Of a DNA stretch of 13,935 bases, positions 1 to 13,935 are shown piece after piece. The notes under the pieces are model-generated. The model ran no database searches. It saw nothing but the letters and a program-made list of their open reading frames with translations, and was not told the DNA's origin. Each line of letters opens with the position of its first letter. Position 1 is the first letter of the stretch. Made by a program: the position numbers and the translations under genes. The DNA is from Dunaliella salina (taxonomy: Eukaryota > Chlorophyta > Chlorophyceae > Chlamydomonadales > Dunaliellaceae): the NCBI GenBank assembly GCA_002284615.2, contig MU069575.1, positions 294,312 to 308,246 of the forward strand. The letters run 5' to 3'.

Positions 1-148
1 AGCGCACACAGCACAGCCGCCCTGGCAGCCAGCCCAGGACTTTTCAGGCTGTCAAACAGCCAAGCTTGGTCAGCAGATGGGAGCACGGTCCCAAGTTCAC
101 GCTCGATCTCTGTGCTTGGGGTAGACAAGGTCCGGCGCATTAGGCTGC
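1..148 (-). CDS. Exon 10 (148 nt visible, cut by the window edge)
   Basis: The acceptor is CACAAAACTGCAG. The exon begins with two bases that join the single base of exon 9 to make Gly. It reads SLMRRTLSTPSTEIERELGT, VLPSADQAWLFDSLKSPGLA and ARAAVLCA up to the window edge without a stop; the other two frames are closed. A duplicate of the acceptor and first codons lies 45 bp upstream, in the same frame. Whether this is the last coding exon cannot be seen. Confidence 0.66.
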
Positions 149-213
149 CTGCAGTTTTGTGTGGGCATGAATGCAACTGACGCATTAAGCTTCCTGCAGT
201 TTTGTACGGGTGT
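136..213 (-). repeat. 45-bp duplication of the exon 10 acceptor
   Basis: Plus-strand 136-180 and 181-213 are two copies with the same CGCATTARGCTNCCTGCAG core. On the minus strand both read ACTGCAG followed by G(C/A)AGC(C/T)TAATGCG, so there are two competing acceptors (exon starts 148 and 193). The upstream one adds 15 codons in frame without a stop. Confidence 0.75.
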
Positions 214-718
214 ACTGGAGAATATTGGAAGGACATGCGCACAAAAATCCTTATAGTTTTTGGGAGCATGCGATAAGTATTGGTTCGTAAGGCTCCCTGT
301 ACTCTTTGTATGGATGTGTATAAAAGGGTGCAACAAGCTTTGATGCTGCACAAAAAGGATGCACACATTGAGAAACAAAGGTTTTGCTTTTAAGCAGGAA
401 AGACAACGCATGCAGGACCGTCCTTTTAACAACACACTTTGAGGAAATCGTCTGCATTGCTTTGAAGAAAGTAAAAAAAGAATTTGCAAGTAGTAAAAAT
501 GCTCCCTGCATTAATTAAGGAGATACATTGACTCAGGCTATATATCATGGATTTGAGGTGGATTTTGGTCAGGTGGAATACATACATGGTTGATTGTAGA
601 TGAATTCCTGTAAAGTGTACATTTCATGCTCAGCTCAAGCTCTCCTAAACTTGGACACTTCAAATATTCATATTTGAACACAACATTGGGCATTTCAAAT
701 CCTTGTGTGCGCACGTAC
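214..718. other. Remainder of intron 9, nothing recognised
   Basis: This is AT-richer intron sequence between exon 9 and exon 10. Open frames on either strand here have no convincing splice sites or protein-like composition. No repeat or RNA structure was recognised. Confidence 0.5.
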
Positions 719-795
719 CACAATCCATGCCATCTGCGCTTTGCATCAGGATCTGCTGTAGCTGTGGAGCGTAGATTTTAAGGAGCTGAGGGCGC
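719..795 (-). CDS. Exon 9 (77 nt)
   Basis: The acceptor GCCTCCCTGATCATCAG gives one starting base, completing Gly with exon 8. The donor is ATTGTG/GTACGT, a very good match to the consensus, leaving one base. The product is RPQLLKIYAPQLQQILMQSA followed by DGMDC, a helix-forming stretch. A second possible acceptor (GCGCCCTCAG, exon start 785) is also open but out of phase with exon 8. A ~110-bp tandem array starts at the acceptor and runs upstream. Confidence 0.62.
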
Positions 796-1515
796 CTGAT
801 GATCAGGGAGGCAAGGTGGCAGGATAACAAGAGCATCACGCTGGGAGAGGAGAAGCCCTGCGCAAAGAATGAGAGAGGAAGGAAAGTATAGGAAGGGATT
901 CTTGCCTATACAGATGATCAGGGTGGGAAGGTGGCACTCTGGCAAGAGCACCACTCGGGGGAAGGAGAAGCCCTGCGCAAAGAATGAGAAAGCAAAGGAA
1001 GGAGCAATTCCTGACTGTACAGATGAACAGGGCGGGGAGGTGGCAGGATAGAAAGAGAATACTCTCGGGCAGCAGAAGCCCTGCGTAAAGGACAGGAAAC
1101 GAAATAGCTGCTGCTCGCCATTGCAGCTGATGAGCGTGTGCGGGTGGCAAGACAGCATAAGCTTCACCACACTCTGTCAGAGGAGAGGTAAATCCCTGTA
1201 CAAAAGAAAAACAGCTAGAAAAAAGAGTGATTCCTGCCTTTATAGATGATCAGTTTGGATCTGGCAGGGTAGGAAGAGCACCTCGCTCTGGGAGAGGTAG
1301 AGCCCTGCGCAAAGGACGAGAGAGGCAAGAGCTGCTCACCATTGCAGCTGACGAGGGTGGGGAGGTGGCAGGAAAGTAAGAGCAACACATTACTTTGTGA
1401 GATGAGAGGCCTCAGCGCAGGAAAAAAAGGGAAGGGCATGGAAAGAGCAATTCCTGTCTTTACAGATGATCAGGCTGATGAGGGTTGAGGTGGCAGGGCA
1501 GTAAGAGCACCTCTT
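796..1515 (-). repeat. ~110-bp tandem array, about 7 degenerate copies, adjoining the exon 9 acceptor
   Basis: Plus-strand copies are anchored on AGATGATCAGG...GAGGTGGCAGG near 798, 913, 1022, 1130, 1244, 1350 and 1466. Each contains GAGCACC/CTCTGGGAGAG and AGCCCTGCGCAAAG. On the minus strand each gives a pyrimidine-rich stretch ending in an acceptor-like CATCAG or ATCTG, so the unit looks like multiplied intron-3'-end sequence of intron 8. Spacings are 106-116 bp and not consistently divisible by three. Confidence 0.75.
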
Positions 1516-1533
1516 GATGATGCTACTAAAAAA

Positions 1534-1588
1534 GGGTGGATGGCGCCTTAGAGGGTGGATGCACCTTAGAGGGTGGATGCACCTCTTG
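1534..1588. repeat. 18-19-bp tandem repeat, 3 copies
   Basis: GGGTGGATGCACCTTAGA repeats at 1534, 1553 and 1571 with one or two changes. It lies in intron 8. Confidence 0.85.
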
Positions 1589-1752
1589 TACGGGGCAGAG
1601 GTTATGCCTTTGCGACCTCACCTTTTCTTGCTTACGGGCATTCGAGATGGATGGCCTCTGACCACAACACATGCACCACCTCATCATTATGTGAGGATGA
1701 ACTTCATTGTGTGAGAATGACCATGAGGAATGCAGGACAGCCTTTTGAGTGG

Positions 1753-1808
1753 CCCTCCATCAAAACTTCAAAAAAGACATCCCTCCATCAAAACTTCAAA
1801 AAAGATAT
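1753..1808. repeat. 28-bp direct duplication
   Basis: CCCTCCATCAAAACTTCAAA followed by AAAGAYAT occurs at 1753 and 1781, nearly identical, within intron 8. Confidence 0.9.
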
Positions 1809-1910
1809 CCATGGATGCAGAGTGGAACGCAAACCGTATCGCTACGTGACCATAACGCGTATTATACCTTTTCTCAAAAGGCGCGTAATGTGTAATGAGG
1901 TTTTTCAGGG

Positions 1911-1960
1911 GGGTGCGTGAAGGTGAGTAAAGGTGTGTAAAGGTGCGGAAAGGTGCATGA
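1911..1960. repeat. 10-bp minisatellite, 5 copies
   Basis: The unit AGGTGNGTAA repeats five times in perfect 10-bp register. No function is evident; 1515-2216 otherwise holds no supported gene. Confidence 0.85.
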
Positions 1961-2216
1961 CAAAAGCCTTCGAGCAGGGTGCGTACTGATGCGAAATGGA
2001 GAAATTCAATTGATGAAAAAGGGGGGTGCGAACTGGTCACGGAGCTGTACAGTAGCTATTGAGGAGGTGACGCAGGCAAGCACTCCACAATGCCCCTCTC
2101 CCTTCCACAAGCAAGATTCTTTTGGTAGTGTCATGTAAGCCTGTGTCCAGTCTTGGCGCAGCCAGCAAGCCAGCAAGACCACCACTGGTATCTCTGGATC
2201 CATTTCCTCATTGCAT

Positions 2217-2745
2217 TTGTGCATGCACAGTGCTTTGCTCATTGCATGCACAGTGCTCATTGCATGCACAGTGCTTTGCTCATGCACAGTGCTTTGCTCA
2301 TGCACAGTGCTTTGCATGCACAGTGCTTTGCTCATTCACAGTGCTCATTGCATGCACAGTGCTCATTGCATGCACAGTGCTTTCCATTCACAGTGCTTTG
2401 CTTACGCACAGTGCTTTGCTCATTGCATGCTCAGTGCTCATTGCATGCACAGTGCTTTGCTCATGCACAGTGCTTTGCATGCACGGTGCTCATCGCATGC
2501 ACAGTGCTCATTGCATGCACGGTGCCCATTGCATGCACAGTGCTTTGCATGCACAGTGCTTTGCTCATGCACAGTGCTTTGCTCATGCACGGTGCTCATT
2601 GCATGCACAGTGCTCATTGCATGCACAGTGCTTTGCTCATTGCATGCACAGTGCTCATTGCATGCTAAGTGCTTTGCATGCACAGTGCTCATTGTATGCA
2701 CAGTGCTCATTGCATGCACAGTGCTTTGCTCATTCACAGCCGTTG
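2217..2745. repeat. GCATGCACAGTGC minisatellite, basic unit about 18 bp
   Basis: About 30 copies of TGCATGCACAGTGCT alternate with TTGCTCA or CATTGCA, giving 16-, 18- and 23-bp variants. Each unit carries the perfect palindrome TGCATGCA and the near-palindrome GCACAGTGC. Several frames on both strands are open only because the unit is 18 bp long; the Cys/His/Ala-rich translations are repeat artefacts, not proteins. It is inside intron 8. Confidence 0.9.
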
Positions 2746-2949
2746 AGCAGGTCAAGGTGCCACGGAGCTGCTCCACATGTCCTGACATATTCCATCTTTT
2801 TTCAAGTGGTGCCCTGAATCACAGGGTTCTTGCACAGTCCCGCATGCACCCCAAAGTGGGAGCTGTTCTTCGGCCCATAACTCTGAGGGTACGCCCGAGA
2901 AAAAATCCATCACACAGTGTGCCAAACCAATCCGGCCTCCTCTTCTGAA
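2746..2949. other. Intron 8 segment with one weak exon-like stretch
   Basis: On the minus strand an acceptor-like CGTACCCTCAG at about 2891 is followed by an open stretch (VMGRRTAPTLGCMRDCARTL) that ends in a stop. No donor was found that keeps the phase between exons 8 and 9, so it is not called as an exon. Confidence 0.4.
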
Positions 2950-3661
2950 TTGATGCGGAGAGTGCACCCCTGCCAACATTAAATTTCATCCTGTCTTCCT
3001 TTCTTAACCATACCCTGCCCCTCAAGCAGTCCTGGCCTGAAGCGCAAGTCGTTTCTCAGCCCCGATGGAATTCGGCCCTTGTGATCTTTATTCCTCCCTA
3101 TTGCCCTTACCCTAATCAATGGAGAGCATCCCAGGATCTCTGCCCACCTTTTTTTCTCTTTTTGTCTCACCCTTACCTGGTCCCCAAGCAGTCAATGGCC
3201 TGAGGCGCGACTTGTCACTCAACTCACGGCGCAATCCAGCCCGTGTGATTTTCTTCCTTCCCTCTTACCCTAACCCTCAAGCAGTCCATGGCACGATGCG
3301 TAAGCTGTTACCCAGGCCCAAATGCGATTCAGCCCCCCCCCCCCCCCCGGAATCCCCTCCTTGTTATTTAAACCCAGCCCCTAAAGCAGTCAATGACCTG
3401 AGGTGTCAGTTTCTACCCAGCCCATAACAGAATTCATAGCTGAAGAACATCCCAAGTGCTTTTCTTCCTTTTTATCCCTAATCGTCTTTACACACACAGC
3501 CCCTTCAACCTTACACAGCCTGTGGAACATGCAATAGCCTAAGGAGTCAGTTGTTATGCAGCCCACAACGCAATTCATGGCCAAGGAACAGGTCCTTACC
3601 CACTCCAGAATGCAGTTACTCAGCCCACAACGCTCTTCATGGCCATGGAAGGGGTCCTTAC
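2950..3661 (-). repeat. Degenerate array derived from the exon 8 donor region
   Basis: Minus-strand copies read about GGCCATYGACTGCTTGGGG followed by a GT, with donor-like GTAAGG near 3178, GTAAGA near 3265, GTATGG near 3010 and GTAAGG near 3599. They resemble the true exon 8 end GGCCATCAACTGCATTCTGG + AATGG/GTAAGG. Plus-strand anchors (AAGCAGTC) sit at 3024, 3186, 3279 and 3384; the two copies nearest the exon are 62 bp apart. Spacing is irregular. Confidence 0.6.
3333..3348 (+). repeat. C16 homopolymer
   Basis: Sixteen consecutive C (G16 on the minus strand) inside the exon 8 donor-derived array. Length may be uncertain because such tracts slip in sequencing. Confidence 0.95.
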
Positions 3662-3845
3662 CCATTCCAGAATGCAGTTGATGGCCCAAGGTACAGGGCC
3701 CTTGGCATCATGGAGGCAACCCAGCCCTCCAAAGTCAACTGAATCCCTACATGCTGCTCTCGGCGATTGCGCGTCGGTGTCTGTGAGCTGGGACTCATAT
3801 GCGTCAGGATGGCCTCTGCCACTCGCGCTGGTTCCAGCATGCTTG
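3662..3845 (-). CDS. Exon 8 (184 nt)
   Basis: The acceptor is GCTCATCCCCTCACCCAG and the donor is GGAATGG/GTAAGG. The exon starts with two bases and ends with two. It encodes an amphipathic helix MLEPARVAEAILTHMS, a polar loop (PSSQTPTRNRREQHVG), and IQLTLEGWVASMMPRALYLG followed by PSTAFWNG. Both edges are duplicated: the acceptor side two more times upstream (to about 4020), and the donor side repeatedly downstream (to about 2950), including a near-perfect second donor 62 bp away. Confidence 0.66.
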
Positions 3846-4175
3846 CTGGGTGAGGGGATGAGCTGGGGGGGCAGCAGGGCGCTGATGAAAGCTGCAACAG
3901 CAAACAAAGGTTCCGGTGTGCGTGTTGGGTGAGGGGATGAGCTAAACAAGTGTGCAACAGCACACTCTGATTGCGGAGTGCTCGGTGGGTGAGGGAATGA
4001 GGTGGGGGAGCAGCAGGGCGCTGATGAAAGTTGCAACAGCAACCAACAGCACACTTTCAAGCAACCAACAGCACACTTTTAAGGCAGATGAGGGGCGCTG
4101 ATGAAAATTGCAACAGCAAGCAACAGCACACTTTCAAGCAACCAACAGCACAATTCCTTAAGGCAGACTCCCATC
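3835..4175 (-). repeat. Repeats derived from the exon 8 acceptor region and a 77-bp duplication
   Basis: The stretch AGCTCATCCCCTCACCCA that forms the exon 8 acceptor recurs near 3918-3938 and 3985-4005 on the minus strand. Between and beyond are GCGCTGATGAAARYTGCAAC blocks near 3880, 4019 and 4096 (the last two 77 bp apart) with CAACAGCACACTTTCAAGCA copies. This makes a compound array in intron 7. Confidence 0.7.
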
Positions 4176-4839
4176 ACAGCAAGCAACAGAGGCAAAAAGT
4201 GAAAAGCAGCGGGAGCACGACAAGCAACAAAAAAAAAGCTCTTATCATGACAAGCAATAGGAATGGAGTGACAACCAGCAGGGCCAGAATTGCCACAGCG
4301 AAGGTTGTCATGAAGCTGATCTCAGATGATCAGGACATGGCTTAAAAAGCATGGTAATAATGCACAACATGGGTGGCAGGGTGCTCATGCATGCTAAAAG
4401 GGCATGAAAAGTGCATGCATCGGCGCTGCCGATAATAAATGTGCCTACTGAAGTGAAACCACATAGACCAACAGTGCCAGCTCAGATGGCATGGAAGGTG
4501 CATAGATCAACAGTGCCAGATAATTTCATTTCCTCAAGCTGCTATTTTCAGCAAAGATATTGTTTGGCGTTGACGTAGCAATTTGCGAGCTGCAAGTGCA
4601 AGCATTCTTCTTTGAAAGCTGGCAGAACGAGGCTTGGTGCAAAAGATGGAGCAAGGGCAATGGCATGCAAATCTTTGATGTCTTTTTCAACATGCACTTA
4701 TGGATGCAAATTCTGAGGCCTTCAGAAAGACTGCACATCCAACGCCCTATTCCGTGATCGGGATATCCCAATGCCAGAGTCTTTAAAGAAATGCCACAAA
4801 GCACCATTTCTTATGCACGGGATAAAGTTTTGACTTGAC
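4176..4839. other. Remainder of intron 7, no supported gene
   Basis: It contains two loose copies of CATAGAYCAACAGTGCCAG (about 4462 and 4501). A plus-strand frame at 4560-4757 is open for 65 residues after an acceptor-like CTATTTTCAG, Trp/Phe-rich, without a matching partner exon. I do not call a gene here. Confidence 0.4.
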
Positions 4840-4923
4840 AAGAAAACTTCCGGGTCTCAGAGGGGCCCACAATACAGTATGCTGTGACAGGGGAGAGATC
4901 TGGAAGGATGTTCATGAGTGAAC
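4840..4923 (-). CDS. Exon 7 (84 nt), probable
   Basis: The acceptor is GCAATTTTGCCCTGGCTCAG, and the exon begins with two bases as required by exon 6. It encodes SLMNILPDLSPVTAYCIVGP then SETRKFS. The proposed donor is TCTT/GTCAAG with one leftover base, in phase with exon 8; the donor is the weak point of this call, since CAA/GTCAAA is nearby. The alternative frames contain stops. Confidence 0.45.
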
Positions 4924-4981
4924 CTGAGCCAGGGCAAAATTGCAGCACAATAGCATGTGTGACAGCGTGTTGCTTCCAAAA

Positions 4982-4985
<4 letters not shown>

Positions 4986-5051
<66 letters not shown>

Positions 5052-5060
5052 TGCGCGTGT
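4986..5060 (+). repeat. (TG)n microsatellite
   Basis: An uninterrupted TG run covers about 4986-5044, continued by ATGTGTGTGCGCGTGTGCAC. It is in intron 6. Confidence 0.97.
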
Positions 5061-5064
5061 GCAC

Positions 5065-5121
5065 ATTTGCACAGGCGTCTTGAAAGTCCGAATATGGAAG
5101 TGAAAATGAGAGATAAATGTG
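5065..5121 (-). CDS. Possible small extra exon between exons 6 and 7
   Basis: A good acceptor (GATGCTTTGCTTTCTCCAG) precedes 57 nt open in a frame that starts with two bases and ends with one, so inserting it between exons 6 and 7 keeps the phase. It would encode HLSLIFTSIFGLSRRLCK. The donor (AAAT/GTGCAC) is weak and runs into the TG/CA microsatellite. It may be a real cassette exon or chance. Confidence 0.2.
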
Positions 5122-5190
5122 CTGGAGAAAGCAAAGCATCAAAAAGTATTGCTCAACAGCTTCTGCTGTTCTGGTTTGAATTGTCGGTCA

Positions 5191-5210
5191 TGCACGTGCA
5201 CGCGCGCGCG

Positions 5211-5244
<34 letters not shown>
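5191..5244 (+). repeat. (CG)n-(CA)n microsatellite
   Basis: TGCACGTGCACGCGCGCGCG leads into a CA run ending at 5244. The whole stretch alternates purine and pyrimidine. Confidence 0.97.
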
Positions 5245-5247
<3 letters not shown>

Positions 5248-5409
5248 GATGGAACAACATTTATTCCCTGTGTTGGGACCTAGTTTAGTCTATGCTGGGC
5301 CTGTGAGCCCCTTTGGTGAGGCTCTAACAAGCTCTCTGGCTAGGAGGCCTTTCCTTAGTGCGCGCAGGCAGACCTGGCGTGGTTAGTTTCATTTTTTATC
5401 CATCCCTTT

Positions 5410-5830
5410 CAGAATGAAAGTAAAGGAAGAGATTCACCCCCCATACCTGTAGCTAAGGCTAAGTACCTGCTCTTGCTGACCTTCATGGCTGCACACACAG
5501 CCTTTACTGCCCCTTTCAGAATGGAGGTAAATAATAGAATTTGCCCCATACCTGCAGCTAAGGCTGGGTGCCTTCTCTTGCTGGCCTTCATGGCTGCACA
5601 CACAGCCTTCACTGCCCTTTTCAGAATGGAGGTAAATAATGGAATTTGCCCCATACCTGCAGCTAAGGCTGGGTGCTTTTTTTTGCTAGCCTTCATGGCT
5701 GCACACACAGCCTTCGCTGCCCTTTTCAGAATGGAGGTAAATGGAACTTGCCTCATACCTGCAGCTAAGGCTGGGTGCTTTTTCTTGCTAGCCTTCATGG
5801 CTGCACACACAGCCCTCACGGCACGCCAGG
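5410..5830 (-). repeat. 105/105/102-bp in-frame array carrying four exon 6 donors
   Basis: Four copies of the exon 6 3' half (GTGAAGGCTGTGTGTGCAGC ...CTTAGCTGCAG/GTATGG) follow each other with donors at equivalent positions 5759, 5657, 5552 and 5447. All spacings are divisible by three. The minus frame is open throughout and repeats KRAVKAVCAAMKASKKKHPA + LAAGMGQIPLFTSIL; the plus strand is open too. It may be coding repeat, alternative exon ends, or decayed intronic copies. Confidence 0.85.
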
Positions 5831-5894
5831 CCACATCCAGCAAAGATGGTTGCTCCACACCCGGGTGTGAAACAAGCGCAATTGTCACACCCTC
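5759..5894 (-). CDS. Exon 6 (136 nt), start of a 35-residue repeat
   Basis: The acceptor CTCCTTTTTTTTGTAG is one of the strongest in the window, and the donor is GCTGCAG/GTATGA. The exon starts on a codon boundary, matching exon 5, and leaves one base. It encodes EGVTIALVSHPGVEQPSLLD followed by a basic helix VAWRAVRAVCAAMKASKKKH and PALAAG. Its 3' half and donor are repeated three more times downstream (exon ends equivalent to 5657, 5552 and 5447) at spacings of 102, 105 and 105 bp. The frame remains open through all copies to a stop at 5409, so the exon may end at any of four equivalent donors. A more decayed relative of the same block lies at about 6385-6448 (AVKALSAAVEE). Confidence 0.7.
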
Positions 5895-6173
5895 CTACAA
5901 AAAAAAAGGAGTGCAACAAACTCTGTGTACTGCAAACAGGTGCACAAGGGAGTGTTCCAGGCACTCTTGCTCTCATGCAGGGGTGGCATGATCATCAAGT
6001 TGCTGTAAGCAGACAATCCGAAAACAATGGCATCTGCCTGGCTGCTTGTGCTCTTATTGGCAACTGCCTGACTACTTAAAAGCAATCAGAGAACGATTCA
6101 AACTGCCCACTAGCTGCCTACTTGCACTTCAACCCTGGAGATTTGCAAGGACACTTGCTGAAATTTTGTATAC

Positions 6174-6255
6174 GTTAGGATTACAGGATCGATTTGATTC
6201 TGACCTTGGTCATTGTTAGGGTTATAGGAACGATTTGATTCTGACCTTGGTCGAG
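6174..6255. repeat. 41-bp duplication in intron 5
   Basis: GTTAGGRTTAYAGGAWCGAT followed by TTGATTCTGACCTTGGTC occurs at 6174 and 6215. On the minus strand each copy has a donor-like CCAAG/GTCAGA. Confidence 0.9.
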
Positions 6256-6384
6256 CTAGGCAGCTGAGCAGCAGGGCTCTGCATGTGCTCTGAGTGCACA
6301 CTTGCTTGATTTCTGATGGGGTAATGCCAGTAAACCACCTGGTCCACAATGGTCTTTTTCTTTCCTTGGTGGAAAGGATACACA

Positions 6385-6448
6385 GAGCCTTGGCCCTAGG
6401 TAGCCTCCTTTCCTCAACTGCTGCGGAAAGAGCTTTCACTGCCTTCAT
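6385..6448 (-). pseudogene. Decayed copy of the exon 6 repeat block
   Basis: The minus strand reads GCAGTGAAAGCTCTTTCCGC, close to GCAGTGAAGGCTGTGTGTGC of the exon 6 array, and translates to AVKALSAAVEERRLPRAKAL. It lies only 23 nt below the exon 5 donor, so a separate intron would be implausibly short. I treat it as an intronic relic rather than an exon. Confidence 0.45.
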
Positions 6449-6471
6449 AGTTTTATTTTTTTTTTACTGAC

Positions 6472-6520
6472 CTGCATCTGGGCATCTCCGAGGTCCTCCA
6501 ACAATTGTGCCCATGCGCGC
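6472..6520 (-). CDS. Exon 5 (49 nt, small)
   Basis: The acceptor is CTCTGTCTCTGG...GGCCAG and the donor is ATGCAG/GTCAGT. It starts with one base that completes the Arg codon begun in exon 4 and ends on a codon boundary. It encodes RAWAQLLEDLGDAQMQ, which continues the helix of exon 4 smoothly (VLRCFRRAWAQLLEDLG). An earlier AG at 6549 (after CTCAAAAG) also gives an open frame but does not match the phase of exon 4. Confidence 0.62.
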
Positions 6521-6557
6521 CTGGCCAGGCATTTCCAGAGACAGAGGGCTTTTGAGC

Positions 6558-6815
6558 ATAAGCACCAGGGGTGCAATTGAAGAATAATTGGTGGCACCAG
6601 AGGTGCAAATTCAAAAATATAAGCAGTCACCAGAGGTGAAAATTGAAAATTCAAAAATAACAACAAACAGCAGGCCCCAGGGGTGCATATTTGCTAGATC
6701 AAATCCACCGGATATGCACACTCAAAACAACAGCAGGCACCGGAGTTGCAACTTCACCAAACCAATATTCACAAGATCTGCACATTCACCAGGGCACCAG
6801 AGGTACAAATTTAAG
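6558..6815 (+). repeat. Dispersed CACCAGRGGTGCAAATT motif, about 6 copies
   Basis: Imperfect copies of a roughly 17-20-bp motif lie near 6560, 6593, 6627, 6673, 6738 and 6797 in intron 4, separated by A-rich spacers. Confidence 0.7.
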
Positions 6816-6839
6816 TACAAGTCCATGAGTGCTTGTGCA

Positions 6840-7010
6840 AGCATAAAAACAAGAAGGGTGTGAAGAAGGAAGGTGTTGTATTTGCAGATCAAGCTTGTGC
6901 ATGCATGCGCCCCTGCTTTCCTGACCGTTGAGACAAAATTAGAAAGGTGTAGAGGAGGAGGATATCAAATTGCAGATTCAGCTTGTGCATGCATGCCCAT
7001 CTGCTTTACC
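6840..7010. repeat. 88-bp duplication in intron 4
   Basis: TTGCAGATCAAGCTTGTGCA + TGCATGC at about 6882 recurs at about 6970 with the preceding AAGGTGT block, a spacing of 88 bp. Confidence 0.8.
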
Positions 7011-7124
7011 AATCAGCAAGAAACTGGGTTTTCAACAAAGCTACTGATCTTTCTTGATTGGCAGCATGCATGCTACGCAAGACGCTGTGCTGCACAATGT
7101 AAGACAAGGTGCCTTCTTCTCTAC

Positions 7125-7239
7125 CTGAAGCACCTCAGCACTGCCAAGACGTCTCCATTGTTCCCTCTCTCAAGCTCCTCCAGAGCAGCCAAAACCAACT
7201 GAGGCAAAACATCCTGGCGCAGCTTGAAGGTAGGCTGAC
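7125..7239 (-). CDS. Exon 4 (115 nt)
   Basis: The acceptor is GGATTATCACTTGTAG and the donor is CTTCAG/GTAGAG. The exon begins with two bases (completing Gly with exon 3) and ends with two bases (completing Arg with exon 5). It encodes two helix-like stretches, DVLPQLVLAALEELERGNNG and DVLAVLRCF, a pattern typical of HEAT/ARM-type helical pairs. It follows a 3.0-kb intron made mostly of repeats. Confidence 0.72.
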
Positions 7240-7329
7240 CTACAAGTGATAATCCACACCAATGGATAATAAAGACTTTACCATTGGGTTTCGGTGAGGC
7301 TCTGCCACTGAAGACTCTACCACTGGATT

Positions 7330-8275
7330 TTGGTGGGGTGATAACAGGCGCAGCACTTGGTGTAGTGGAAGGTGCAGCACTTGGTGTAGTAACAAGTCCA
7401 GCAGTGAGTGACAGGCGCAGCACTTGGTGAGGCCATGACAGGTGCAGCACCCAGTGACAGGTGCAGCACTTGGTGAGGTCATGGCAGGTGCAGCACTCGG
7501 TGAGTCATGACAGGTGCAGCATTAAGTGGCAGGTGCAGCACTTGGTGAGGTCATGACAGGCGCTGCACTGAGTGACAGGTGCAGCACTTGGTGAGGTCAT
7601 GACAGGCGCTGCACTGAGTGACAGGTGCAGCACATGGTGAGGCCAGGATAGGTACAGCACTCAGTGACAGGTGCAGCACTTGGTGAGGTCATGACAGGTG
7701 CAGCACTGAGTGACAGGTGCAGCACTTGGTGAGGTCATGGCAGGCGCTGCACTCCTCAGTGACAGGTGCAGCACTTGGTGAGGTTATGACAGGCGCTGCA
7801 CTGAGTGACAGGCGCAGCACTTGGTGAGGCCAGGACAGGTGCAGCACTCAGTGACAGGTGCAGCACTCAGTGACAGGTGCAGCATTTGGTGAGGTCATGA
7901 CAGGTGCAACACTGAGTGACAGGCGCAGCACTTGGTGAGGTCATGACAGGTGCAGCACTGAGTGACAGGTGCAGCACTTGGTGAGGTCATGACAGGCACA
8001 CACTGAGTGAAAGGTGCAGCACTTGGTGAGGTCATGACAGGCGCTGCACTCAGTGACGGGTGCAGCACTTGGTGAGGTCATGACAGGTGCAGCATTAAGT
8101 GACAGGTGCAGCACTTGGTGAGGCCATGACAGGTGCAGCACTGAGTGACAGGCGCGCAGCACTTGGTGAGGCCATGACAGGTGCAGCACTGAGTGACAGG
8201 CGCGCAGCACTTGGTGAGTTCATGACAGGTGCAGCACTTGGTCAGTGACAAGTCGTGACAGGTGCAGCACTTATG
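7330..8275 (+). repeat. 46-bp minisatellite, roughly 18-20 copies
   Basis: The unit is GTGACAGGTGCAGCACTTGG + TGAGGTCATGACAGGTGCAG + CACTGA, with several spacings of exactly 46 bp (7541, 7587, 7633, 7679, 7725) and a few variants. It is itself a doubled GACAGGTGCAGCAC half-unit. Each unit has the perfect palindrome GTCATGAC and GTGCAGCAC. The Cys/His-rich open frames on the minus strand are repeat artefacts. It lies in intron 3. Confidence 0.92.
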
Positions 8276-8289
8276 TCGGCGGCAACGGT

Positions 8290-8885
8290 GACTCGGTCCC
8301 TGCACACACAAAATTTTCTGCTTTTGCGCACACAGCTTTCCACATTTCCATGGCGTACAAGTGCGCCTCTTTGGCACACATGTAGCTTGGCATATTGGCA
8401 GCTCAAGAGTCCTCGCTGGCATTGTGCACAAAAACTTTCTTACTTTTCATGGCTCGTGCAAGTACAGCTTGCTAAGACACATGCAGCCTGGCATGTCAGC
8501 AGCTCAGGAGTCCTTGCTGGCATGGTGCACAAAACTATCTTCCTTTTCATGGCTCGTGCAAGGAAAGCACTTTGGCACACATGCAACTAAGCACGTCGAC
8601 AGCTCAGGAGTCCCGCTGGCATGGTGCACAAGAACTTTCTTCCTTTTCATGGCTTGTGCAATTGCAGCTTGCTGGCACGAATGCAACCTAGCACGTCGGC
8701 AGCTCAAGGGTCCTCATCGGCACTGTGTACAAAAATTGTCTACCTTGACATGGCTTGTGCAATCCGCAGCTCAGGAGTCCTCGTTGGCATTGTGCACAAA
8801 GATCGCCTACCTCTACATGGCATGTGCAAGTGCAGCACTTTGGCACACATGCAACCTGGCACAGGCAGCTTAGGAGTCGTGAAGA
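8290..8885 (+). repeat. ~100-bp tandem array, about 6 copies
   Basis: Copies begin at GTGCACAAAAACTTTCTT (8424, 8525, 8624, 8725, 8792), with spacings 101, 99, 101 and a shortened 67, plus partial copies at both ends. Each contains TTTTCATGGCTCGTGCAAG and CAGCTCAGGAGTCCT. Open frames in several phases are by-products of the repeat. Intron 3. Confidence 0.88.
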
Positions 8886-9002
8886 GCATTTGTGACATTC
8901 CATGCCTAGAGGGCAGTTGGGCCCTTGAGAAATAGCCTTTGCTTCTTAAACTAAAAATAATGAGATATCGATTGTGTGAGCTGGAGCTATACAAGGTGGA
9001 GA

Positions 9003-9310
9003 CGCAAAATTTCAGATCCTGGAGACACAAAATTTCAGATCCACAACAGTGTTCACCAAGGATCACCCATTTCTCCAAGGATTGCCCATTTCTTATCTGG
9101 TGGCGGCTGTCATGGCAGGGACTCATCCATGCAAATTGTGATGTATGACAACAGTGTTCCCCAAGGATCACCCATTTCTCCAAGGATAACCCATTTCTTA
9201 TTTCTGCACAGATCAAGTAAGTATAAATGTTCAAGGATAAATCAAGTAAGTTATGTTCTCTAAGGACACCCACTTCTTATTTCTGCATAAATCAAGCAAG
9301 CAGAAGCACC
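9003..9310 (+). repeat. Short duplications: 23-bp x2, 105-bp x2, and a partial third copy
   Basis: CAAAATTTCAGATCC repeats 23 bp apart (9005, 9028). ACAACAGTGTTCMCCAAGGA followed by TCACCCATTTCTCCAAGG occurs at 9043 and 9148 (105 bp), and CCCAYTTCTTATTTCTGCA again at about 9269. Intron 3. Confidence 0.85.
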
Positions 9311-9525
9311 ACCAGTCCAGATTGCTTGCACACAATCAGAGCAGCACAGTGCAGGGAAGCACCCATTGACATGCAGACACCATCCACGTGGCAAACAATG
9401 GCATCCATCAGAATATGGAGAGCCCTGCATTTGTTCTGTCAGCGATTCGAAGGTGCAATGACCTGTGGCATCCACCGCAGACAACTGCACTCTTCAGAAG
9501 TTCAAAAAGTCTCCTACTCATCATT

Positions 9526-9680
9526 TTTGCAAAGTAGAATTTCAGGTCATTATTTTCGCTACGCAGAATTTTCAGGTCAGGCCTCGTTTTCATGAGAAGG
9601 AGATGCACTGGATTGCATGAGGCTCGCCTCGTTTTCATGACAAGGAGGTGCACTGGGTTGCATGAGGCTCGCCTGGCAGG
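9526..9680 (+). repeat. 29-bp x2 and 45-bp x2.3 duplications
   Basis: GCAAAGTAGAATTTCAGGTC at about 9529 recurs as GCTACGCAGAATTTTCAGGT 29 bp later. CCTCGTTTTCATGASAAGGA at 9582 recurs at 9627 (45 bp), with a further partial copy up to 9680. Intron 3. Confidence 0.85.
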
Positions 9681-10215
9681 GGTTATCCCTGCAAAAGAGA
9701 AGAAACCTGCGCAAATAAAATGGGATCCCTGCACATGGTAGCCCTGCAATGGAAATGAATCCCTGCAAACGGCAGCCCTGCACATTAAAAGAGGCCCCTG
9801 CAACAAAGCTTGCAATGAAGGTGTACTGCGTCGTAGGAGGCATCCGTTCCCTGGCAGGTGTTCATCCCTGCAATTGATAAAAAGACCTCCGCAAGTGACT
9901 TGCCCGCAAATGACCCAAGATCCTTGCAAATGACAACCTTGAAAATAAAATGAGGTCCCTGCAAATGGGAAGATGAATCTGCAAAAAAATTGGCCGCAAA
10001 TGAAACAAAAATCAAACATCCCTGATTATGAAATGAGGTCCCGCAAATGGCATCTCTGCAATTAAATGAGAGCCCTGTGACTGAAGTGAGATCATATGAG
10101 GCAACAGGGACCCCACAAATGTCAAGCCCGCAATTCAAGTGAGATCCCTGCAAGTGGTACCCCTGCGACGGAAGTGAGATCCCTGCTAATAGCATCCCTG
10201 CACATCGACAGAGGT
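9670..10215 (-). repeat. Dense field of TGCAGGG motifs about every 20 bp
   Basis: Plus-strand CCCTGCAA or CCCTGCAC occurs roughly every 18-22 bp, alternating with RTGGCA and AAATGAG spacers, forming a ~40-bp dimer. On the minus strand every copy reads TTTGCAGGG, which looks like a 3' splice site. The field lies directly downstream of the exon 3 donor, in intron 3. Confidence 0.82.
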
Positions 10216-10239
10216 CCCTACAACTCAAGATGCACTGAC

Positions 10240-10373
10240 CTGCTGGCGGCTTTCCTGGTAAGGGCTCGTCCCCAAAGCTGATGGCCGGCAGTGAGCTCTG
10301 CCGGCTGTGGGGGGCTGCCTTCCTGGCAAGGCTCATGAGGGCATCCAGGCAACCCCATATCCTGGTGGCAATC
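10240..10373 (-). CDS. Exon 3 (134 nt)
   Basis: The acceptor is excellent: a T-rich stretch ending TTTTTTGTCCAG before GATTGCC. The donor is CAGCAG/GTCAGT. The exon starts with one base and ends with one base, matching exons 2 and 4. It encodes IATRIWGCLDALMSLARKAA, a clear amphipathic helix, followed by a loop (SSLPAISFGDEPLPGKPPAG). Degenerate copies of its 5' half together with the acceptor lie directly upstream at about 10421-10478 and again, more decayed, up to about 11040. The nearest copy is exactly 105 bp away and in frame. Confidence 0.72.
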
Positions 10374-10420
10374 CTGGACAAAAAAGACACAAATACATAA
10401 GGTTGGGGAGCAAAGAGTGA

Positions 10421-11040
10421 TGACTTGCTGGCAAGGCTCATGAGGGCATCCGAACACCCCCATATTCTGGTAGCAATCCTGAACCCAAAAAGACGAGAAA
10501 AACAAAAGGTAAAGGATCATGGGGGCACCTGACACCCCTGAACCATGGAGGCAGTCCTGACCTGAAGCACAAGTACAAGCATGTCTCCTTTTCCTTACTT
10601 GATGTAGGGAGAGTTCCTCTGCCGACGTAGTTTTTCTTTTTTCCTTTGCAAGCAATTATTTGTACCCTCTGATAGGCATCACAACAGATTGATAATCGTT
10701 CTGACGTGTTGGCATGCAGAGGCCAAATTATATCTGATAAATGCTGATGTTTTCTAATTTTATTGCGACCTGAGTCGTTGCAATTGCTCCCCCTCTGAGC
10801 GGGCAAGAGAGCATGAGCGCACTCGGCAGGTCCCACATCCTGAAGGCAAATTTGAGCAAGTAAGCGCAAAAGGAACAAGGGATCACAAGGCCATCCTGAG
10901 AAGTGCAAGTGCCTGTAAGAGGCAAGGCCATCCATGAGAACACCGGTGCCCTCCCAATTCCGGGAATCTTCTGTGCACAAAACCACCAAAGAAAGCAAAG
11001 ACCTATGAAAGCACAAGAGCAACCCCAGATCCTGAGGGAA
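10421..11040 (-). repeat. Degenerate tandem copies of the exon 3 acceptor and 5' half
   Basis: The closest copy (acceptor GGGTTCAG, exon start equivalent 10478) encodes IATRIWGCSDALMSLASK and is 105 bp and in frame with exon 3. More decayed copies start near 10555, 10845 (MWDLPSALMLSC in the matching frame), 10905-10957 and 11030 (GATCTGGGGTTGCTC). The sequence between 10590 and 10790 has no recognised copy or gene. Confidence 0.65.
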
Positions 11041-11089
11041 ACCCTAGCATGAAAGGAGGAGGAAGGCTAGGAATCCCTGCGTCACTTGA

Positions 11090-11870
11090 TCAACTTCTCA
11101 CCCACCAACAGCAAATCAAACAATGCAGCTATTTCTGGAGTTGAAATGCGCTCCATGCATGACACAGGCCACAAATTTTGATCAATTCCACACACAGCGC
11201 CTGGCTCACCGTTTGTTTTCTGGCTCACTCTTTGTTTCCTGGCTCACCTTTCGTTTTCTGTGGCGCTTGCGGCTGGAGCCCTGGCTCATCCTCTGTTCTC
11301 TGTGCACATGTAGCTGAAGCCCTGGCTTACCTTCTGTTTCCCACTGCACCCCCCCTCAGCTGCAGCAGCAGTGCCCCCAGCACTGCATGTGGCTACAGCC
11401 CTGGCTCGTCTATTGCTTTTTGTCATCCCTTCAATTACAGCAGCAATGCCCATAGCACAGCATGCGGCTGCAGCCCTGGCTCTCCTTTTTTTTCTGGCTC
11501 ACCTTGTGTTCTCTATGGCGCATGCAGCTGCATCTCTGGCTCACCCTCTGTTTTCTGCGGCGCATGTGGCTGCAGCCCTGGCTCACCTTTTGTTTCCTGC
11601 CGCCACACCCCTCAGCTAGCAGCAGTGCCCCCAGCATTGCAAATGGTTTCGACCCTGCAGCCACTGCTGCCCCCAAGGAAAAAAAGCATCCCTTAGTCAT
11701 CCGCTCAGCTTCTCACTCACTCACCACAACTCCGACAAGGCAACTACCTCAAAGGTTGGAATGCGCAAGGTAATGATACAGGCCACTATCCAATGAATCC
11801 ACTCAAAGCACCTGGCTCACCCTCTGTTTCCTGCTGCAATCCCCCTAAGCTGCAGCAGCAGTGCCCTTAG
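11090..11870 (-). repeat. Donor-derived array below exon 2 with a ~610-bp higher-order duplication
   Basis: The true exon 2 end GCAGGAAACAGAGG/GTGAGCC recurs at least nine times on the minus strand (about 11202, 11222, 11241, 11281, 11322, 11402, 11496, 11536, 11578) in 40-42-bp and ~78-bp units. The longer units also carry the exonic CACTGCTGCTGCAGCT part. In addition 11094-11220 and 11708-11830 resemble each other over their length (CTTCTCAC, AATGCGC, GACACAGGCCAC, CACCTGGCTCACC in order), a higher-order copy. Confidence 0.72.
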
Positions 11871-12288
11871 CACCTCATGCGGCTGCAGCCCTGCAGATAC
11901 CGCCGCCCCCACAGACGCATCCTCTGCAGCTTCACACAGTGCTTGGCATGTGGACTGCACGACACCCAGCAGAGCAAAATGATGCTGGGCTGCTGCGCTT
12001 GCGCGTGGCTGTGCTGAGCCAGCGGGGGGTGCCATGGAGGCTGTGGATGGGATGGAATCAGCGCTCTGGCTTTCAGGGGGCTGAGTGGCTGACAATCCAG
12101 TGGGTGATGGTGCTGAGGTCTTCAGACCAGGGTGAGCACTTAATTCTGAGGTCTCCTCATCAGAGTGTGCACCAGGGCTTGTGAAAGGCCGGATGGCCTG
12201 GACGGAAGCCACCAGTGGAAGCAAGGTGGAGGCGAGGGCATCCAGGAACGAGTGCAGCTTGGCGCAGCGGGGAGCTGGCAAGGAGGGC
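11821..12288 (-). CDS. Exon 2 (468 nt), helix - disordered linker - helices
   Basis: This is the longest exon. The acceptor is a pyrimidine-rich stretch ending CCGTGCAG, and the exon starts with one base that completes the Arg codon from exon 1. It encodes a helix around KLHSFLDALASTLLPLVASV, a Ser/Pro/Ala-rich linker of about 70 residues (containing DEETSELSAHPG and SIPSTASMAPPAGSAQ), then two helices around HFALLGVVQSTCQALCEAAE and HEVLRALLLQLRGIAAGNR. The donor is AGAGG/GTGAGC with two leftover bases, which join the first base of exon 3 as Gly. The helix-linker-helix layout fits an alpha-solenoid with an internal disordered loop. The reading frame stays open upstream of the chosen acceptor to 12884 through the repeat array, so a longer exon or an upstream acceptor is possible. 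No family is recognised. Confidence 0.68.
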
Positions 12289-12730
12289 CTGCACGGGAGC
12301 AACAAGAAGGCTATGCAAGATAACTGGTTGGGGAGCGGAGTTGAGGCAAGGGCGTCAAGGAATGGGTGCAGCTCAACAAAGCATCTAGCTGGCAAGGAGG
12401 GGCTGCATGGGAGCAACGAGGTGCCAGTGAAGGACAGCGGGCTGGAGGCGAGGGCATCCAGGAATTGGTGCAGCTCGCCACAGCGTGGAGCTGGCAAGGA
12501 GTTCCTGGGCGTGGGAGCAACAAACAGCCTATGAAGGATAGCTGGCGGGAAGGGAGGGCATCCAGGATTGGGTGCTGCTTTACGCAGCGTAAATCTGTAA
12601 AGGAAGGCCAACACGAGAGCAACAAAACAAACAAAAAAGCCTATAAAGGATAGTTGGTTGGAGGGGAGGGCCTCCAGGAGTGGGTACAGCTTGAGACAGC
12701 GTGGAGCTTGTAAGGAGGTCTTGGGCATGT
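12234..12730 (-). repeat. ~102-114-bp array, 5 copies, derived from the exon 2 acceptor and first codons
   Basis: Plus-strand GAGGGCATCCAGGANTGGGT anchors lie at 12234, 12348, 12450, 12554 and 12666 (spacings 114, 102, 104, 112). The first copy is the start of exon 2. On the minus strand each reads LPAPRC..LHXFLDALAS with an upstream CAG acceptor. The two copies nearest the exon keep its frame. Confidence 0.82.
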
Positions 12731-12750
12731 GAGTAAAAAAAAGCCTATAA

Positions 12751-12842
12751 AAGATAGTCGCAGTTGTGGACACTGCATGGGGACAAAGGAGCCCACAATA
12801 GATATGAAAGATAGCTGTGGCTGTGGACACTGCATGGGGATT
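12751..12842 (+). repeat. 57-bp duplication
   Basis: AAAGATAGYYGYRGYTGTGG followed by ACACTGCATGGGGA occurs twice with GTGGAC at 12766 and 12823. It lies in intron 1. Confidence 0.88.
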
Positions 12843-12954
12843 GATTCCCCTCTCTTCCCGGACCTGGGATCCTGCATAGGCCATGGTGGCAGAAACATCA
12901 TTTATGTGTCAGTGCAAGCGTGCTGCTGTGCATGCGTAATCACACATCCCATGC

Positions 12955-12974
12955 AGTAGGGTTTAAACCCTACT
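12955..12974. other. Perfect 20-bp palindrome with telobox-like arms
   Basis: AGTAGGGTTTAAACCCTACT is its own reverse complement. It contains TAGGGTTTA and TAAACCCTA, head to head matches to the TTTAGGG telomere-type repeat. It lies 40 bp inside intron 1 from the exon 1 donor. Confidence 0.85.
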
Positions 12975-13013
12975 AAAATCCGTGACACATTGACCCTAAA
13001 GGCCCTTACACAC

Positions 13014-13303
13014 CTCATCCGTGCCAGGAGCACCAACGCGGCCCCCATTGCCTCCACCACTGCCCGTGCATGTAGCTGCTGCTGCTCCCACTCCCGCGCT
13101 GCCCGCTGGTCAGACAAGCAGCACCCAGCACCCCCAGGTTCACTTGCTGAGTCACCCGCACTGGAACTCACTCCACGGCTGGCTGATGCGGGGAGGAAAG
13201 CACCCAAAGCGGACTTTCCCAAGGAGCACAGGGCCTCAGTGCAGCTTGTGCACACCGCCACCAGGACATGCAGCAGGGGCTGTGCGCCATGCCAACACGC
13301 TCC
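13014..13303 (-). CDS. Exon 1 of the visible gene (290 nt), helical protein segment
   Basis: The acceptor is CTTGCAG followed by GGAGCG, and the reading frame starts in phase 0. The segment opens with a hydrophobic helix-like stretch (GAQPLLHVLVAVCTSCTEAL), passes through a Ser/Gly/Ala-rich loop (about residues 35-58), and ends in a second helix containing EQQQLHARAVVEAMGAALVL. I chose the donor ATGAG/GTGTGT, which leaves two bases and joins in frame to exon 2; GTAAGG four bases further on is a stronger-looking alternative that would need a different acceptor in exon 2. The first ~60 nt are also the exonic part of the 130-bp array that continues upstream to the window edge. Because that unit is not divisible by three and meets a stop (LH then TGA), only the last acceptor copy gives an open product. 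No domain is recognised. Confidence 0.6.
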
Positions 13304-13935
13304 CTGCAAGCACACTTGCACACATGCATTGCAAGCTCACAACACCTGCCACACTAGGGCATGGTGCAGTGCAGCTTGTGCACACCTCCACTAGGACATG
13401 CAGCAGGGGCTGCGTGCCATGCCAACACGCTCCCTGCAAGCACAATTGCACACATGCACAGCAAGCTCACAACACACGCCACACTAGGGCATGGTGCAGT
13501 GCAGCTCGTGCACACCTCCATCTGGAGATGCAGCAGGGGCTGCGCGCCATGCCAACACGCTCCCTGCAAGCACACTTGCACACATGCATTGCAAGCTCAC
13601 AACACATGCCACACTAGGGCATNCACACCTCCACCAGGACATGCAGCAGGGGCTGCGCGCCATGCCAACACGCTCCCTGCAAGCACACTTGCACACATGC
13701 ATTGCAAGCTCACAACACTTGCCACACTAGGGCATGGTGCAGTGCAGCTTGTGCACACCTCCATCTGGAGATGCAGCAGGGGCTGCGCGCCATGCCAACA
13801 CGCTCCCTGCAAGCACAATTGCACACATGCATTGCAAGCTCACAACACATGCCACACTAGGGTATGGTGCAGTGCTGCTTGTGCACACCTCCACCTGGAG
13901 ATGCAGCAGGGGCTGCGCGCCATGCCAGCACACCC
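13250..13935 (-). repeat. 130-bp tandem array, 5.3 copies, with assembly gap
   Basis: TCCCTGCAAGCACA anchors are at 13301, 13431, 13561, 13674 and 13804: spacings of exactly 130 except 113 across the N at 13623. Each unit carries the exon 1 acceptor CTTGCAG/GGAGCG plus about 60 nt of exon-like sequence and about 50 nt of intron-like sequence (CACACTAGGGCATGGTGCAG). The array runs off the right edge with a diverging end. Confidence 0.95.

Follow-up and report, generated by a model that had tools for sequence, protein, structure and literature searches.

The DNA analyzed here, which we refer to as the window, is a stretch of 13,935 nucleotides of the green alga Dunaliella salina (contig MU069575.1, positions 294312-308246, in the 284.9-Mb assembly GCA_002284615.2). 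Open frames, GT-AG sites and phase indicate a gene of about 11 predicted exons (E1 to E11) on its minus strand (Table 1); agreement of phase is possible across E1-E2-E3-E4-E5 and for E7-E8. Exon E5 is doubtful because the intron between E4 and E5 would measure 38 nt and the donor is weak. Rfam and tRNA scans of the window found nothing. Direct self-matches with E<1e-3 make up 48.4% of the window, Tandem Repeats Finder returns 47 overlapping rows for it, and at several exons the flanking repeats contain copies of the exon edge that run through the splice junction.

Exon edges are copied together with their splice junctions

In base-by-base alignments, the copies continue across the junction at E1, at both edges of E2, and at E3, E8, E9 and E11. 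The aligned copies number four plus a partial one at the E1 acceptor, four at the acceptor and four at the donor of E2, three at the E3 acceptor (two of them weak), three at the E8 donor and five at the E11 acceptor; E9 has one at its donor and about two, which are ambiguous, at its acceptor. Identities of the window copies range from 0.72 to 0.98. These alignments bear out the first-pass annotation, which had noticed copies of the exon edge in the flanking repeats of six exons (its exons 1, 2, 3, 6, 8 and 10, which we equate with E1, E2, E3, E8, E9 and E11, and its exon 9 with E10, an assignment made without given coordinates): aligned unit by unit, the arrays are related to their adjacent edges at all six. 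Its further statement that an array starts at the acceptor of exon 9 stands in part, since an 18-bp array adjoins this acceptor but ends some 10 nt before the edge. That nearly every junction had been amplified was an overstatement; by a strict local-alignment score, a copy that spans the junction is found near only 7 of the 22 exon edges (the E9 acceptor being tested at 3839, a few bases inside its best reading).

When 22 junctions of the window and of other loci, preselected as duplicated, were scored more loosely, 21 of them gave copies, 60 in total. Their orientation is uniform: relative to the authentic junction, each of the 31 acceptor copies is on the upstream side and each of the 29 donor copies on the downstream side. 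By the strict score, a spanning copy was found at none of 144 sampled positions in the shuffled window (base by base, in 200-nt blocks). Spanning copies by this score also occur at 41.9% of 895 intronic control positions and at 6.4% of 78 positions in exon interiors. The junction copies therefore exceed chance as judged against shuffled sequence, but they do not exceed the array density of the introns themselves.

Table 1. Predicted exons and repeat features of the window (window positions; a slash marks the junction)
Feature	Position	Strand	Details
Predicted exon E1	13014..13303	-	open frame; acceptor cttgcag/; donor ATGAG/gtgtgt; phase fits E2
Predicted exon E2	11821..12288	-	155-codon open frame; phases fit E1 and E3
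Predicted exon E3	10240..10373	-	phase fits E2 and E4
Predicted exon E4	9463..9688	-	holds in-frame 45-bp tandem duplication (15 codons, 9581-9674)
Possible exon E5	9313..9424	-	doubtful
Predicted exon E6	7125..7239	-	without junction copies
Predicted exon E7	6472..6548	-	acceptor uncertain; without junction copies
Predicted exon E8	5759..5894	-	phase fits E7 in one of the three open frames of E7
Predicted exon E9	3662..3845	-	acceptor ambiguous: 3845, 3841 or 3891
Possible exon E10	2051..2206	-	weak donor
Predicted exon E11	719..857	-	
E1 acceptor array	13237..13931	-	units of about 130 bp: intron end, AG, up to about 67 nt of exon; 243-bp higher-order period
E2 acceptor array	12226..12757	-	4 copies, about 102-114 bp apart; 2 keep AG
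E2 donor array	11073..11911	-	copies of exon end and GTGAGCC-like donor
E3 acceptor duplication	10314..10519	-	clear copy 10421-10519; weak copies 10802-10870 and 10998-11055
E4 acceptor, one short copy	9850-9888	-	
46-bp array	7329..8272	-	without junction copy (counter-example)
E8 donor array	5404..5822	-	105-bp period; frame open across four units
Repeats at E9 acceptor	3830..4116	-	junction ambiguous
E9 donor duplication	3532..3679	-	62-bp unit, 2 copies
18-bp array adjoining E10 acceptor	2216..2739	-	no unambiguous junction copy
E11 acceptor array	798..1513	-	5 copies, most of them spaced about 110 bp, each with about 60 nt of exon

Arrays of the window show no preference for exon edges

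To count as lying inside an array, an edge and 10 nt on either side of it had to fall wholly within self-match segments, and circular shifts served as the null. Eight edges are inside arrays by this measure, compared with a mean of 9.8 (sd 2.4) for the shifts, 82.5% of which reach at least eight. These data do not support the proposal that junctions are the preferred target of duplication. Self-matches cover 21.3% of the exons and 53.0% of the non-exon sequence, and in exons longer than 200 nt they include just 1 of the 444 bases that lie over 90 nt away from an edge. The suggestion that the introns consist mainly of junction copies is likewise unsupported: families that include such a copy account for 3,719 of 6,742 array bases (55%), and the 46-bp array and others contain none. 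Within the window, the arrays thus fill introns and enter exons by some tens of bases, without preferring the junctions.

Kinase and chaperonin genes of the same genome carry junction copies

Conserved exons elsewhere in the genome were located by family profiles, which ignore repeats, and yielded 12 CCT (chaperonin), 6 proteasome and 66 protein kinase matches. The 16 kinase regions examined, chosen mostly, though not strictly, by best score and with their sequence unseen, hold 24 of the 66 matches in full. Twenty-three of these were used as exons; the 24th (C94:234636-234782) is itself a copy in region L054, and because this pair of L054 matches stood side by side among the matches, a duplication could have been suspected beforehand. 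Once the loci had been inspected, edges that lacked a persuasive splice site were excluded by eye (6 of 46 for kinases, 7 of 22 for CCT, 3 of 12 for the proteasome). The CCT total of 22 is that after removal of L033, a weak match in which no CCT-like frame was seen by eye, and for L054 and L034 the acceptor was placed manually.

By the strict score, a junction-spanning copy is present at 8 of the 40 kinase edges (7 of 38 if L054 is left out), at 1 of 15 CCT edges and at none of the 9 proteasome edges. Hence the window gene is not unique in this respect, contrary to what had at first been supposed. Two upstream copies, each comprising the acceptor and about 100 nt of exon, accompany the IVHCDIKPGN exon of L052; the start of the ISDFG exon is copied in L049, that of the RYRAPELLLG exon three times in L054, and L050 has copies at two donors. 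In L053 and L056 both edges have copies by the looser score and one edge each by the strict score. Among the chaperonins, the CCT6-like exon of L025 has two upstream acceptor copies, and the CCT7-like donor of L034 has a copy by the looser score only. We presume the gene names of the kinase and CCT loci, including these two, from their motifs. Thirteen of the 23 kinase exons show no self-duplication within 60 nt. A self-match in L029 was rejected as a CA microsatellite.

Decoy splice sites persist in the copies

By the looser score, the splice dinucleotide is retained in 48 of the 60 copies, compared with 39.4 expected from the identity of the flanks. A second count, which leaves out the E4-acceptor, E9-acceptor and L045 junctions, finds it in 46 of 57 copies, including AG in all four full E1 acceptor copies, GT in four of five E2 donor copies and all three decoy donors of the E8 array, which are also in phase. 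Decoy splice dinucleotides persist, and there is no sign among these copies that they are being purged. The initial view that duplications cross junctions, recur with differing divergence, lengthen introns and leave decoys behind agrees with these observations.

The arrays are local

No direct self-match of at least 30 bases links places more than 1,500 bases apart in the window, and the window arrays were not found in 42 other loci of the same genome (135,655 bases, not the whole genome). Since they are local and were not found in these loci, the arrays are not a dispersed element. Nor did the window and the same 42 loci show a similar element in many introns, as introners would. Outside the self-match segments, and with the low-complexity filter on, only three stretches of the window recur in the 42 loci (1864-2054, 6318-6454 and 10582-10657; shared with L007, L008, L014, L028 and L033), and these are probably remnants of mobile elements. 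The exon model leaves out an open stretch near 6420-6230; part of it belongs to the second of these fragments, which was later found to be dispersed.

The share of near self-matches at eight other loci was 8.2% in L006, 1.1% in L007, 19.0% in L008, 10.1% in L020, zero in L014, L021 and L022, and 35.6% in L015, where only 3,846 bases were usable. In L015, a 33-nt segment (88% identical) occurs at 1671-1703 and again at 2237-2269, flanking a candidate exon. L022 holds the sole PsaD match found (1501-1803), which differs from PDB chain 9mgw_D (PSAD1) at 3 of 94 residues, has two R-to-C changes relative to that chain and a stop inside the matched stretch, and is possibly a decayed copy. This match marks the organism as photosynthetic. 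In the window itself, the E8-E9 intron contains an inverted pair of long TG and CA runs (4986-5061 and 5189-5244), about 140 bp apart.

Tandem duplication as the probable source of intron growth

We consider it likely that the arrays arose by ordinary tandem duplication, tolerated wherever one intact junction survives, so that introns lengthen while the protein stays unchanged and exon edges are no special target. Recurrent tandem duplication of segments of about 60-200 bp, by replication slippage or unequal exchange, would make local minisatellite arrays. Where the segment that is duplicated includes an exon edge, the more distant copy would become intron, and the copy joined to the exon body would retain the junction; provided that this junction is still used, the spliced product would not change and the decoy would be neutral. 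A duplication wholly within an exon would alter the protein and mostly be removed; such duplications seem to be rare, with one in-frame case, in E4. Repeated rounds would let introns grow and decoy splice sites gather at exon edges. Since one intact junction would suffice and in-exon duplications would alter the protein, the arrays should reach into both edges of exons and yet spare their cores, without preference for the junctions.

Several observations speak against this interpretation. The phases of E6 and E7 disagree, and one end or more is uncertain in each of E5, E7, E9 and E10. No homologue of the window gene was found with P0001 (1,046 candidates) or with a 582-residue concatenation (7,995 candidates), the candidates being limited to proteins of 0.55-1.75 times the query length; the gene model is therefore predicted from the sequence itself, as is the use of the exon-joined copy as the spliced site. 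Pfam gave no match for P0001 and P0002; with a 578-residue concatenation it gave a single match, below threshold, and two PDB matches of the window gene (E 2.7 and 2.9) were regarded as chance. The most similar copy is the nearest one in only 4 of 15 arrays, so that the copies do not simply age outward from the exon. In the kinase loci, moreover, arrays become sparser away from the exon: they occupy 22.3% of 318 positions at a distance of 40-150 bp and 5.0% of 121 positions beyond 600 bp (5.6% of 196 exon-interior positions are in arrays), and exons could accordingly seed arrays.

This fall in density is what one would expect if exon edges were duplication hot spots, seeded by splicing-linked R-loops, chromatin or base composition, and the share of window array bases that lie in families with a junction copy points the same way. 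We nevertheless regard hot spots as unlikely: the edges of the window show no excess over intron, the 8 of 40 kinase edges with a spanning copy stand against 22.3% of the adjacent-intron positions, and the CCT loci follow the opposite trend, with 3.0% of 134 positions in arrays near the exon and 10.5% of 969 far from it.

About equally improbable is that some arrays are functional as such, their decoys serving as alternative donors or acceptors that add coding repeats, as in human IFI6. The E8 donor array, open through four units with all its decoy donors intact and in phase, is the best candidate, and 7 of the 57 decoys, including those three, would yield stop-free, in-frame products. The majority (37 of 57) either lack the site or shift the frame, however, and of the 20 among the 46 intact decoys that keep the frame, 13 run into a stop.

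False tandem expansion during assembly would be one way to read the single N at window position 13623, which lies within the E1 acceptor array, next to a unit with 17 bp fewer than the rest, and possibly represents a closed gap, so that the copy number there is uncertain; yet false expansions would be near-identical, and copies that diverge by about 2-32% from the junction and recur at several loci make such an artefact very improbable. Least can be said for introners (dispersed elements that make introns) or for transposons containing internal repeats as the source: although the three fragments named above are dispersed, the arrays examined are local, contain the local exon and did not turn up at the other loci examined, which already contradicts this origin for them.

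Beyond ordinary tandem duplication at the loci studied here, we tentatively raise a bolder possibility, about which we are rather more doubtful than confident: junction-crossing duplication may still be at work throughout the genome and drive the growth of introns in conserved genes, with splicing routinely picking the exon-joined site among decoys about 60-200 bp apart and some arrays, for example the in-frame one at the E8 donor, feeding coding repeats into the protein. Each array would then be a natural test of splice-site selection. In any case, the many natural decoy arrays offer material for testing how one splice site is selected over another, and programs that predict genes in genomes of this kind face several copies of one exon edge.

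Comparison with known systems

Turri et al. reportedly described in 1995 a minisatellite that gives multiple splice donors in human IFI6 (6-16). Repeat units act as splice donors both there and here; use of the repeated donors is reported for IFI6 (PMC4526556), whereas those of D. salina are predicted decoys. The potato RdRp gene gained an intron through a duplication that crossed an intron/exon boundary (PMC4974935). A boundary is crossed in our case as well, but intron gain by tandem duplication, as in the Rogers model and potato RdRp, creates a new intron, whereas existing introns appear to lengthen here. Introners are repeat families spread over a genome and, according to PMC7789003, place repeats in introns near splice sites; the arrays described here share this position but are local direct repeats.

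The closest relatives are the "mirage" minisatellites of amphioxus, described for the globins BflGb6/BflGb9 and Adh3 (PMC3087553) and for TnC and PGBD5 (PMC3902484), and the initial impression that no such structure had been described is thus superseded. In the available portions of this literature, mirages are so far known from these few lancelet genes. A literature search, which included the accessible parts of PMC11228838, PMC11247165 and PMC8226300, noticed no report of mirages in algae; few of its queries joined algae, repeats and splice sites, and subscription papers were mostly outside it, so that this silence is weak evidence of absence.

As in the mirages, the tandem units span exon-intron boundaries, both in the window and in the kinase and CCT loci; 5' and 3' boundaries are both affected, with 31 acceptor and 29 donor copies here; and many, though not all, units keep AG or GT (46 of 57 and 48 of 60 in our two counts). 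For amphioxus, PMC3087553 reports that regular splicing is undisturbed as judged by RT-PCR, and also length differences between haplotypes, and turnover or concerted evolution within clusters. The RT-PCR and haplotype data are those of amphioxus, whereas ours are the sequence of one assembly. The present case differs further in its lineage, a photosynthetic green alga, and in affecting several unrelated genes at once. The predicted structure of the window is that of the lancelet mirages; in this different lineage it affects several genes unrelated to one another, and its presence in conserved kinase and chaperonin exons suggests that intron growth of this kind occurs in unrelated lineages.

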